A DNA stretch of 64,000 bases from an uncultured Bacteroidales bacterium (GTDB taxonomy: Bacteria; Bacteroidota; Bacteroidia; Bacteroidales; UBA932): contig ONSU01000009.1 in NCBI GenBank assembly GCA_900320545.1, positions 1 through 64,000 of the forward strand. The letters run 5' to 3'. A model generated the notes under the pieces. The model did not search any database. It was not told where the DNA came from and worked only from the letters and a program-made list of their open reading frames with translations. Positions 9,618-14,966 of this stretch are shown in pieces. A program made the position numbers and the translations under genes. The first letter of the stretch is position 1; each line of letters begins with the position of its first letter.

Positions 9618-10400
9618 ATGAATAAGCTTTTATTCACACTCCTTTCCCTTGCCGCGATAATATCCTCATGCCCGCTCTTCGCTCAGGAGATTCAATTTAC
9701 GACGGTCAAAGATTTAGTCGAGACACAGGAAAAAGGATGGTTCCGAGTAGAGGGTAAATACGTAAAAACGTATGATAAATCTAAATTACTCTTTTCCATT
9801 GAAGATGAAGATTATATCATCCCCGTTCAACTGGTGAAAAAGGATCTCGGAGCGGAGAACCGCTTCGAGGCTTTGAACCTGCAGAAAGGCGATATGCTTT
9901 TGGTGGAGGGGAGGCTCGCCAGACTTGAAGTCGACTGGGAGTATTATAAAGGACTTGCAGATGCAGTTATCCTTGAAAAGATAGAAATGGTAGAAGAGGT
10001 AGAAAAGGTAGAAGAGGTAGAAAAGGTAGAAGAGGTAGAAGAGGTAGAAGAGGTAGAAGAGGTAGAAGAGGTAGAAGAGGTAGATGTACTTACTTACCCT
10101 GAAACGATGCCTTTCTTCAACAGCGGAGACACCATGGAGTTCTCTATGTGGGTTAACTCACAATTGAATTATCCGAAAGTTGCCAAAGAGAATGGAATAC
10201 AAGGACGAGTTACCCTTTCTTTCACGGTGGCGAAAGATGGTAGCGTAACCGATGTTAAAGTGCTTAAAGGAGTGGATCCGTCCCTCGATAAAGAGGCTGT
10301 CCGCGTGGTTTCCCAATCTCCCAAGTGGACGCCGGCTACATTAAACGGCCAACCTGTAGCCGTCACATATACATTCCCTGTCATATTCGGACTGAAATAA
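9618..10400 (+). CDS. TonB C-terminal domain protein with OB-like N-terminal domain and VEE repeats
   Basis: A 260-residue secreted protein with a signal peptide ending near FAQ (residues 1-23). Residues 24-120 resemble a small OB-fold, with GWFRVEGKYVKTYDKSKLLF and a second strand block DMLLVEGRLARLE. A strongly acidic repeat of VEE/VEK triplets (125-155) leads to a TonB_C domain (about 180-260) with QGRVTLSFTVAKDGSVTDVKV. TonB_C domains usually contact outer-membrane receptors, but this protein has no inner-membrane anchor beyond the signal, so it may act as a periplasmic partner. Its gene starts 14 bp after the lipoprotein gene. Confidence 0.75.
   Translation: MNKLLFTLLSLAAIISSCPLFAQEIQFTTVKDLVETQEKGWFRVEGKYVKTYDKSKLLFSIEDEDYIIPVQLVKKDLGAENRFEALNLQKGDMLLVEGRLARLEVDWEYYKGLADAVILEKIEMVEEVEKVEEVEKVEEVEEVEEVEEVEEVEEVDVLTYPETMPFFNSGDTMEFSMWVNSQLNYPKVAKENGIQGRVTLSFTVAKDGSVTDVKVLKGVDPSLDKEAVRVVSQSPKWTPATLNGQPVAVTYTFPVIFGLK
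9990..10079 (+). repeat. Ten-copy 9-bp tandem repeat within the TonB-domain gene
   Basis: Ten consecutive units of GTAGAAGAG or GTAGAAAAG encode VEE or VEK. The later six units are identical, which suggests recent expansion by slippage. Because the unit is 9 bp, changes in copy number keep the reading frame and alter only linker length. Confidence 0.9.
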
Positions 10401-12573: not shown

Positions 12574-12806
12574 GCTTATATCCTGTCTGAAGTCCTTTTG
12601 GATTACATTTGCGGCTAACTCAACGCTGCGATATAAACTCTTTTTATATCACAACAATCCCGGCCATATTTTTAGTGGACACTAATGAAGCGGATACTTG
12701 AATGAACCTGCTTACCCCGGAAATACGGATACCACAGGAACATCCGCCCTCGTGGATGGCTATTTCCCCGGGAAAAGAAAAAAGAAGGATAAGAAATAAG
12801 TTCCCT

Positions 12807-13487
12807 ATGTCCCAACAACACTACCCCTGCGAGATTTGTAAATACCTGATTGTTCTCGGTATTTTTGTCTCATCTTTGACTTCTTTTGCCGCCACATCTT
12901 CATTCCCGGATAATACCCCCCACGGAGATGGAGGCATTTATATGGACGGAAGGATGGAGGACGGAACCCGTTATATTATATCTTATTCCAGGCAGTGGTG
13001 GATTTACGAATTAGGCATTTGCAAATTCATTTACGAGGACGGGACGGCGGATTATTTCATTTCTGCCGAATCCGAAATGTTTATACCGGAAAACGGGCAG
13101 ATGGTGTTCATTTATATGGATGCCGATGGCAAAAGGCAGGCTATTGTGCTGCAGCAATGGTTCGCCGATGAGGAAACGACGACGAAAAGAGCTATGTTAA
13201 TTAAACCGGTCTTTCATTTATTCGGCGGTGTGGGTTTGTCATTGGCTCCATCCAGTATGACGAAGACGCAGGAGCATTATTCTGCTCTGTACGCTATTTC
13301 GGAAGATGAGATCAACCTCTTGACCAAGGTCGGGATTAAGGAGGTTCGAATCTCCGAGCGTTCCACCTACAATAGTTTGAAAGGTGCGTATCTTTCAAAG
13401 ATGTCATCTTGGATATATGAGACTAAACTAAAGGTTGACAGCAGGGGCTCGAAAAGTGTTAATCTGATTTTGGAAGATATCGAATGA
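12807..13487 (+). CDS. Hypothetical secreted protein with a chimeric 5' end
   Basis: A 226-residue protein from ATG 12807; an upstream in-frame start at 12702 is possible. Residues 1-11 (MSQQHYPCEIC) are almost identical to the start of the separate small gene at 13925. They are followed by a hydrophobic stretch YLIVLGIFVSSLTSFAATSS that looks like the remains of a signal peptide. The rest is beta-rich with no domain I recognise. Likely scenario: an upstream duplication of the small gene's 5' end was fused to a secreted protein gene. The true start may therefore be an artefact of the fusion. Confidence 0.5.
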   Translation: MSQQHYPCEICKYLIVLGIFVSSLTSFAATSSFPDNTPHGDGGIYMDGRMEDGTRYIISYSRQWWIYELGICKFIYEDGTADYFISAESEMFIPENGQMVFIYMDADGKRQAIVLQQWFADEETTTKRAMLIKPVFHLFGGVGLSLAPSSMTKTQEHYSALYAISEDEINLLTKVGIKEVRISERSTYNSLKGAYLSKMSSWIYETKLKVDSRGSKSVNLILEDIE

Positions 13488-13924: not shown

Positions 13925-14116
13925 ATGTCCCAACAACACTACCCCTGCGAGACCTGTAAATTCCGGGCTCACTACGACAAGAATCCCAAGTCGTTCCTCG
14001 GCCGCTTCTGGCGGTGGCACATCAATTTCTGCCCCGGCTGGAAGAACTACTTCACCCATCAGCCGGAGGAGAAGAAGGCCGAACTGAGGGAGAAGTACGG
14101 CTTCACGAAGTATTGA
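13925..14116 (+). CDS. Small cysteine-containing protein
   Basis: A 63-residue protein starting MSQQHYPCETCKFRAHYD and ending EKYGFTKY. The C-x-x-C at 8-11 plus a later cysteine and histidines (HINFCPGW) could bind zinc. It contains many aromatic and basic residues (RFWRWHINF). Its first 28 bases are repeated at 12807. I do not recognise a named family. It starts 12 bp after the preceding lipoprotein gene. Confidence 0.55.
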   Translation: MSQQHYPCETCKFRAHYDKNPKSFLGRFWRWHINFCPGWKNYFTHQPEEKKAELREKYGFTKY

Positions 14117-14175
14117 CGGCTTCTTGAGCCGTCAGAAGTGACGGAAACTATCAGTAATAAATCACTCTACTTCCC

Positions 14176-14205
14176 TTGACTTTACGAAGAATTTCGTTAT
14201 CTTTG
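14176..14205 (+). promoter_or_regulatory. Promoter for the two-microORF unit
   Basis: TTG (14176-14178), 19 bp, TATCTTTG (14198-14205): a near-perfect Bacteroidota promoter. It predicts a transcript starting at about 14212, at the edge of the first inverted-repeat arm. Confidence 0.7.
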
Positions 14206-14248
14206 CAACAGATTATTTGAATCAGCAAGTGGAGATAAGCGCCCACCA

Positions 14249-14374
14249 ATGCTGGAACCCAAACAGAGCACCGATTCTTTATTGACTCCGGTGCTCTGTA
14301 TTTTTAAAAACGGGCAGCGGTACTGTTACAAGCCGCCCAAATGCTCACAATCGCTTTTATGTAATCAACTATGA
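14249..14374 (+). CDS. Candidate microprotein 1 (41 aa)
   Basis: Reading frame starting MLEPKQSTDSLLTPVL and ending SQSLLCNQL. It contains four cysteines and the motif NGQRYCYKPPKC. It overlaps the start of the next small frame by ATGA. It shares a NG-x-x-x-Y-x-KP pattern with the second frame. Against coding: an intrinsic terminator lies inside it. It could instead be part of a regulatory leader RNA. Confidence 0.35.
   Translation: MLEPKQSTDSLLTPVLCIFKNGQRYCYKPPKCSQSLLCNQL
14263..14306 (+). terminator. Strong hairpin with T-run inside the microORF unit (attenuator-like)
   Basis: ACAGAGCACCG (14263-14273) pairs perfectly with CGGTGCTCTGT (14289-14299), followed by ATTTTT. This is a classical intrinsic terminator about 90 bases downstream of the predicted transcription start, consistent with a short leader RNA or an attenuator. 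Confidence 0.75.
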
Positions 14375-14523
14375 TTCAAATAATCTATTCTCAAACCAGC
14401 ATTGTGGAGCGCCTTTGCATAGTATGCGAGGATGAGTTCCAGCGAACCGTATTGGTCAGAGGTCATTTTAGGGTGATCAATGGCAAAAAGGTTTATGTGA
14501 AGCCACATTACCGTAAAAAGTAA
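14371..14523 (+). CDS. Candidate microprotein 2 (50 aa, C-x-x-C, basic tail)
   Basis: Reading frame starting MIQIIYSQTSIVERLC and ending NGKKVYVKPHYRKK. It has a C-x-x-C (LCIVCEDEF) and a strongly basic C terminus. It lies between an upstream promoter and a downstream terminator (14568-14600), which supports real transcription. No known family recognised. Confidence 0.45.
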   Translation: MIQIIYSQTSIVERLCIVCEDEFQRTVLVRGHFRVINGKKVYVKPHYRKK

Positions 14524-14567
14524 TCAGAGTCACATTAGAGCTTAGTTTTCAATCCAAACTGTCCGTT

Positions 14568-14600
14568 CTGCAGTCATCCTGTCGGATGGCTGCAGTTTTT
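14568..14600 (+). terminator. Intrinsic terminator after the microORF unit
   Basis: CTGCAGTCATCC (14568-14579) and GGATGGCTGCAG (14584-14595) form a stem with one mismatch and a 4-base loop, followed by TTTTT. Confidence 0.75.
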
Positions 14601-14731
14601 CCACCAGGAGAAGATCCCGGACCTGGTTATAGGGAAGCCTACAAGAAGAGGACATTCACGCGAAAGCAATTACTATACAATAAAATATTGTTATTCCCTT
14701 TTCTAAAGTGGATCAGTAATGGCTGTCCCGG

Positions 14732-14880: not shown

Positions 14881-14966
14881 TCCGGGCGAAACCCCGTACA
14901 AACGCCCGGAGTCTATGGCTGAGAATAAAGGATCCGGGCGAAACCCCGTACAAACGCCCGGAGTCT
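14881..14966 (-). repeat. Two tandem small palindromes, 52-bp period
   Basis: The 34-bp unit TCCGGGCG...CGCCCGGAGTCT occurs identically at 14881-14914 and 14933-14966. Each copy forms a hairpin (CCGGGCG/CGCCCGG) around AAACCCCGTACAAA. Related copies in the opposite orientation lie at 23223-23312 with the same 52-bp period. Confidence 0.8.

Follow-up and report, generated by a model that had tools for sequence, protein, structure and literature searches.

A large family of tiny RNA-plus-peptide units in uncultured Bacteroidales that looks like a self-contained antisense switch

The c4 RNA stands first in its operon, and two segments of c4 pair with two sites at the start of icd. Published accounts place c4, icd, and ant1/2 of phage P1 in one operon (PMC8198154) and catalogue C4 as RF01695 (PMC2864571). 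The closest described case that was found is IsrK of the Salmonella prophage Gifsy-1, a 77-nt RNA whose read-through form has a 45-codon ORF that is locked by pairing; the same report also compares IsrK with the RNAs of P4 (PMC4825925). Seven putative type I pairs with a divergent antisense layout are described in Bacteroides thetaiotaomicron, in a source that also gives the Bacteroidetes promoter consensus as TTTG/TAnnTTTG (PMC7366714).

The unit described here lies in a 64,000-nucleotide stretch of contig ONSU01000009.1 from an uncultured gut bacterium of the Bacteroidales, a stretch referred to as the window. No literature on its family was found in open-licence PMC, and the impression in a preliminary description that it belongs to no known family agrees with Rfam, which had no match for the unit. 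Over the whole window the gathering score was reached only by a distant tRNA, and over 14150-14650 (E <= 5) the only match was rydB, at E 4. Six loci had no match at the gathering score; six relatives searched at E <= 1 gave one miRNA model (E 0.17), outside the unit in one relative. Likewise, the C4 covariance model (RF01695) found no match in the window (gathering score), in 14150-14650 (E <= 5), or in the six relatives (E <= 1).

Layout of the unit at 14176-14600

Sequence comparison indicates that the unit is real and is one of a large family of tiny RNA-plus-peptide units. It spans about 430 bases from promoter (14176) to terminator (14600). The units of this family are probably self-contained antisense modules, each joining an RNA to a peptide. 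Its parts are as follows.

14176..14205, + strand: Bacteroidetes-type promoter, with TTG at about -33 (14176-14178) and the -7 box TATCTTTG (14198-14205)
about 14208-14212, + strand: putative transcription start, placed from the promoter position
14210..14224, + strand: arm A at the transcript 5' end, complement of A' (inverted-repeat search and cognate-partner tests)
14229..14246, + strand: small hairpin P1, GTGG/CCAC with loop AGATAAGCGC, read by eye
14239..14255, + strand: arm B, complement of B' (inverted-repeat search and cognate-partner test)
14249..14374, + strand: 41-codon frame, judged non-coding (frameshifted in the relative L003; no common frame in 15 units)
14263..14306, + strand: terminator-like hairpin H1 with U-tract, perfect 11-bp stem 14263-14273/14289-14299
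14309..14317, + strand: arm C, complement of C' (cognate-partner test)
14371..14523, + strand: protein-coding frame of 50 aa (78% identical relative; family in 136 of 400 genomes; dN/dS 0.43 against L003)
14372..14386, + strand: arm A', over the ORF start codon (inverted repeat and cognate-partner tests)
14396..14412, + strand: arm B', within the ORF (inverted repeat and cognate-partner test)
14559..14567, + strand: arm C', in the 3' UTR (cognate-partner test)
14568..14600, + strand: final intrinsic terminator, stem 14568-14579/14584-14595, kept in L003

Inverted repeat A joins 14207-14224 to 14372-14389 (18 nt, 94%), and inverted repeat B joins 14239-14255 to 14396-14412 (17 nt, 82%). The features listed in the preliminary description are present in the sequence, namely the two ORFs of 41 and 50 aa sharing an ATGA overlap, the inverted repeats with arms crossing as A-B-A'-B' and reaching the start codon of the 50-codon frame, the perfect internal terminator-like hairpin, and the terminator stem. 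A third long-range pairing, C:C' (14309-14317/14559-14567), was absent from that list. Along the transcript the arms follow one another as A B C A' B' C', and each of the three helices thereby crosses the other two. H1 has an energy of -20.9 kcal/mol. P1 overlaps arm B, P1 and B:B' being mutually exclusive, and its loop is common to several relatives (both by eye). The layout that recurs in the family is promoter, arm A at the 5' end of the RNA, arm B, a terminator-like U-tract hairpin, arm C, the ORF with A' at its start codon and B' in its interior, C', and terminator.

A structure arising by chance was rejected. The predicted fold of the 391-nt transcript has an energy of -123 kcal/mol (z = -5.07), which was equalled by 0 of 100 shuffles, and a 15-bp perfect distant inverted repeat was reached in 0 of 500 dinucleotide shuffles. 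The promoter had been called strong. A site is indeed there, and a -7 box recurs upstream of the ORF in 72 of 77 family rows (by a permissive regular expression, with no chance control), but the consensus scan does not rise above shuffles (1 site against a mean of 1.3) and is no evidence by itself; the same applies to the terminator scan (2 sites against 1.5). Among the five rows lacking the box, L098 and L099 are cut by the contig end, L112 has a variant box and keeps the other parts, and L116 and L089 have no clear box.

Two tiny proteins had been proposed, and only the second of these stands. Indels in the leader of L003, the closest relative, shift the 41-codon frame, which is hence not regarded as a gene. 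No common frame occupies that position in the 15 units checked, L003 included; in 6 of the 15 some frame of at least 30 codons reaches the ORF start, at varying positions.

Other repeats are seen elsewhere in the window. Just downstream of the unit, 14881-14966 contains two direct copies of the stretch TCCGGGCGAAACCCCGTACAAACGCCCGGAGTCT, beginning at 14881 and 14933. Two frames about 1.1 kb apart, 13925-14116 (63 aa, at its start) and 12702-13487 (261 aa, internally), have the stretch MSQQHYPCE(T/I)CK in common, after which the 261-aa frame diverges; this looks like a partial duplication or fusion. The frame 9618-10400 has an end that is TonB-like by eye and carries a long EEVEKVEEVEEVEEV repeat.

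The peptide and the distribution of its family

The 50-aa peptide has a basic C-terminus, VRGHFRVINGKKVYVKPHYRKK, and the peptides of the family are basic and 45-55 residues long. Among 35 similar equal-length ORF pairs drawn from 68 readable ORFs of the 77 rows, pairs which overlap and are not independent, dN/dS was below 0.5 in 32, undefined in one, and at least 1.0 in two. Between the window and L003 the 0.43 reflects 7 synonymous and 13 non-synonymous changes. By this measure the 50-codon frame acts as a selected protein under purifying selection, although so tiny a frame is easily missed in annotation.

Searches with 18 members found no Pfam family matching more than one of them (best E 0.011), and NCBIfam and PADLOC matched 0 of 40 members (E <= 0.1). 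In PHROGs, phrog_21154, which is annotated as of unknown function, was matched by 12 of 18 members (best E 2e-9), the window's own protein not being among them. The same phrog is present in one genome of 198 from across the phylum and in one (E. coli) of 14 controls, hence the C-terminal motif is wider than the unit. In an AlphaFold model made with 40 relatives, residues 31-50 alone are predicted with confidence, the mean pLDDT being 97 for residues 31-40 and 92 for 41-50; the whole model has a pLDDT of 74.5 and a pTM of 0.39. The predicted structure has a helix at 9-20 followed by four short strands, with a small beta unit in the C-terminal half, and a fold search with the model gave 0 of 46 matches at E <= 0.001. 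Reading of the sequence and the predicted helix and strands do not point to a hydrophobic membrane peptide, the usual type I toxin.

An 18-member profile of the 50-codon frame (A1) matched 136 of 400 same-genus genomes (E <= 1e-3), which are uncultured Bacteroidales of the Candidatus Cryptobacteroides kind, with up to six matches per genome. At E <= 1e-5 it matched 2 of 295 genomes of the order, both in the window's genus. A search with the 50-codon frame itself found matches in 18 of 150 genomes (E <= 0.1), and the window's own genome holds a single match by DNA, by profile, and by RNA model. Sixteen records of a second collection, all of them metagenome-assembled genomes, are assigned to Bacteroidales, Rikenellaceae, Candidatus Cryptobacteroides aphodequi, Candidatus Egerieousia equi, and others. 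The Candidatus Egerieousia equi record suggests that the family is not strictly confined to the window's genus.

In L003 (genome G040) the 50-codon frame is 78% identical to that of the window, other relatives being weaker. The DNA similarity of the two covers the unit and stops short of the flanks, and the L003 copy lies between an alanine racemase gene and a thioredoxin-like gene (the latter by eye). In the leader, 157 of 168 alignment columns are identical and 4 of the other 11 are gaps; the ORF, with 132 of 153 bases identical, is less conserved than the leader. A DNA search of the 400 genomes gave matches in 89 (E <= 0.1), all but a handful of which are short, many lying over the promoter. 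The 77 family rows include two overlapping frames of one broken copy (L012).

Some copies (L098, L099, L084, L121, and others) are only a few hundred bases or less from a contig end, as would be expected of repeated sequence. In L079 two full units resembling each other are separated by about 950 bases, and the C-terminus of the first is altered. In L156, L164, and L181 the familiar 5' unit precedes another type of ORF (AKSGRVRIELSEEQPT...VHVRAHWRRRPAKP), which is probably a further subfamily.

A phage origin was also considered and rejected, as searches of INPHARED, PLSDB, and IMG/VR gave no full relative. In INPHARED the window's protein had one partial match (44%, E 0.9) and two other members had none; the one member searched in PLSDB had no match, and neither did profile A2 in IMG/VR. 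The window's protein matched one IMG/VR contig (L124, 3593-3844), a lipoprotein-like frame ending IYVQGYWRKEGTDSVYVKPHYRSPKQ that shares only the C-terminal motif of the family, the RNA not being seen by eye.

Cognate arms and ORF-less 5' units

Covariation among relatives had been suggested as a check in the preliminary description, and compensatory change was found for all three helices: the arms of A:A', B:B', and C:C' change together among relatives. For A:A', the score was that of the best helix without gaps that the first 65 nt can form with the region around the start codon. Over 52 units cognate arms scored 27.1 against 15.8 (sd 2.7) for swapped partners, and the cognate was best of row and column in 37 units; the control pairings 5':3' UTR, C:ORF, and C:A' were best in 0, 0, and 1 of 52. 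Most units of the family have a pairing sequence of their own, and the whole looks like a self-contained antisense switch.

Nineteen units were hand-picked from two related subfamilies, that of the window and one with the ORF core VCERLFDELVKEW, w and L127 being close relatives and L149 having a truncated ORF. In these, cognate scores were 31.1 against 16.2 for A:A' and 33.2 against 23.1 for B:B', each reached by 0 of 20000 permutations, and the cognate was best of row and column in 12 and 5 units, respectively. B:B' is clear only in these two subfamilies and is not significant over the whole family (best in 9 of 52 units); hence it is taken as a property of subfamilies.

For C:C', the bases after H1 were compared with the 3' UTR in 41 of 51 units, the others having no U-tract found or too short a region. 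The difference is small, 20.9 against 17.4 (sd 3.7), and was reached by 0 of 20000 permutations; 36 distinct helix sequences were counted, some of them mislocated. Over a wider region C:C' was best in just 1 of 52 units, because C sequences are common within subfamilies and the region is wide. In H1, 7 of 12 pairs were changed on both sides at least once among 15 sequences.

A covariance model of the 5' unit (R1), built on 15 sequences, matched in 45 of 250 genus genomes (E <= 0.01). Of the 62 places listed, 43 were examined, with some subfamily ORFs translated by hand. Twenty-two have a family ORF within 420 nt, though L149 and L150 look truncated. Up to 21 have none, among which L161 is a likely false match, the ORF of L155 is a divergent one, and less than 210 nt remain in L154 and L172. 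The reverse, an ORF with no recognisable 5' unit, concerns at most 2 of the 75 rows that could be judged (L116 and L089). L092 has three 5' units in tandem, the last one before the ORF, and L104 has two; within these tandems the A arms differ and the units are otherwise alike. By eye, L157 and L178 are the same ORF-less unit in two genomes. The ORF-less units may be decaying remnants.

A stretch of the window at 62106-62205 matches R1 weakly (E 0.56); it includes a TATCTTTG box, and a hairpin there runs into T-rich sequence. It may be a distant stand-alone unit or a chance resemblance.

Specificity within one genome was examined in G165 and G270, three ORF units each being paired with three targets and further family members of these genomes (e.g., G165:C23) being omitted. 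In all six ORF units arm A was best on its own target, with scores of 22.0 to 31.0 against 11.0 to 16.5 for other targets. Arm B scored 24.0 to 40.0 on its own target against 12.0 to 21.0 in five of the six; the exception is L092, with 16.0 on its own and 21.5 on another. The ORF-less unit L173a of G165 keeps C, C', and the arm A of L133, an ORF unit of the same genome, and scored 23.0 with the A' of L133, equal to L133 itself. For A, L173b scored 20.0 at one and 20.5 at a second A' site other than that of L133; its B score with L133 was 30.0. The other six of eight ORF-less units in these genomes matched no tested target as ORF units do.

Candidate explanations and comparison with known systems

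The explanation we favour is that an early-terminated short antisense RNA is made together with a read-through peptide mRNA that the RNA keeps silent, a logic for which phage c4 RNA and, for much of it, IsrK of Salmonella are precedents. Transcription would start at about 14210 and much of the RNA would stop at H1, giving a short RNA of about 95 nt with arm A free at its 5' end and arm B in a hairpin loop. The read-through RNA would be the mRNA of the 50-aa basic peptide and silent from birth, its own arm A covering the start codon, arm B pairing inside the ORF, and C pairing with the 3' UTR, which would enclose the coding part in a single domain; simultaneous formation of all three helices is not required. 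Since A and B differ between copies, silencing should be largely restricted to the unit's own mRNA and barely reach neighbouring units. When free, the short RNA could also bind A' and B' sites in trans, on copies whose arm A is lost or occupied. However, silencing in cis by A would make a trans-acting RNA unnecessary, so the sequence is no proof of trans action.

Because the layout is one of silencing and many units have lost the ORF, the peptide may be harmful, a cost that would make silencing worthwhile and would fit an addiction or immunity-like role. As a tentative extension, the family could be a new kind of Bacteroidales addiction/immunity module whose antitoxin has no gene of its own and is the 5' end of the toxin mRNA, produced by early termination, with a private two- or three-part pairing code and with orphan 5' units that give immunity. 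If so, private codes would be kept by compensatory change so that modules in one cell avoid cross-silencing, and the orphan 5' units would act against related peptides.

The main competitor, to which we give a rather low probability, is activation of the IsrK type, in which the short RNA in trans frees the cis-locked read-through mRNA and the peptide is switched on. IsrK shares the order of promoter, short RNA, terminator, leaky read-through, and a 45-aa ORF, and its middle RNA segment either folds into a local hairpin or pairs with the ORF (PMC4825925); arm B is likewise either in a local hairpin (by eye) or paired with B'. The paired stretch of IsrK, however, is the 3' part of orf45 in the same account (PMC4825925), whereas arm A pairs over the start codon or directly at it, and a trans RNA at A' would cover this codon as well. 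This position of A favours silencing over activation.

Still less probable is autogenous control in cis only, with the short RNA as a by-product and the basic peptide binding its own pseudoknotted leader for self-repression. A small basic peptide with a confidently predicted C-terminal beta unit (pLDDT 97 and 92) and crossing helices at the start codon would suit such control. The ORF-less units nevertheless retain promoter, P1, and H1 (by eye), and the helices vary freely where a protein-binding site would be expected to limit variation; the 0 of 46 fold matches at E 0.001 also lend it no support.

It is very unlikely that the inverted repeats act as DNA in the mobility of a small element, the RNA reading being secondary. 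In 17 of 20 pairs of similar copies the alignment does stop no more than about 100 bases ahead of the -7 box and 175 past the stop codon (in the other three it extends further). Phage-type integrases account for 5 of the 71 neighbouring proteins given to Pfam, out of 107 of at least 110 aa, and the other neighbours are mixed among the first 25 Pfam families listed. On the other hand, no transposase lies inside the unit, and the arms, which sit where the RNA begins, over the start codon, and by the terminator, follow RNA logic; at least 3 of the 17 pairs have further shared stretches, so the similarity is partly common descent of the site. Finally, that the unit is an ordinary leader with a chance frame can practically be dismissed, for although the 41-codon frame is indeed chance, the family-wide covariation, the cognate-partner tests, and the purifying selection on the second frame contradict it.

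Silencing by the unit's own RNA remains the preferred reading. The family adds to a phylum with little-known RNA regulation a multi-copy, fast-diversifying antisense family that is apparently outside phages. For studies of the evolution of antisense specificity, its three crossing helices with many distinct cognate sequences provide a natural library of RNA switches that are mutually specific. The basic peptides, a family without a name, offer a new subject for functional work.

Among known systems, type I toxin-antitoxin pairs resemble the unit as proposed here in having a tiny ORF, an mRNA that is often translationally inactive, and an antisense RNA (PMC11228461). The complementarity of the RNA and its putative target is specific in the permutations of A:A' and B:B' and in the preference within two genomes, as would suit an RNA antitoxin. 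Type I toxins, however, are usually hydrophobic (PMC6563280) whereas this peptide is basic, and their antisense RNA is a separate gene whereas here it would form the 5' portion of the transcript that encodes the peptide; the layout of the Bacteroides thetaiotaomicron pairs differs from that of the unit as well. The CI RNA of phage P4 is likewise an antisense RNA; it is made from a primary transcript, pairs with sequences on both its upstream and its downstream side, and is associated with premature termination (PMC4825925), but it acts on transcription termination, the paired site here being the start codon. With c4 of phages P1 and P7, the unit shares a putative antisense RNA in one operon with its target, the co-transcription here being presumed; unlike it, c4 belongs to the immunity region of proteobacterial phages. 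To our knowledge, H1, the C:C' helix, and the conserved basic peptide are extra relative to c4.

With IsrK, the unit as predicted from its sequence shares a short RNA with its own promoter, a Rho-independent terminator, and leaky read-through into a tiny ORF, and also a long form locked by pairing between RNA and ORF with an alternative local hairpin (PMC4825925). According to the same account, IsrK is an activator in trans that acts for the downstream gene anrP, and the amino-acid sequence of orf45 varies (PMC4825925); here the tiny ORF is the sole product seen and the peptide is conserved. In contrast to IsrK, arm A covers the start codon and a third helix, C:C', is present.
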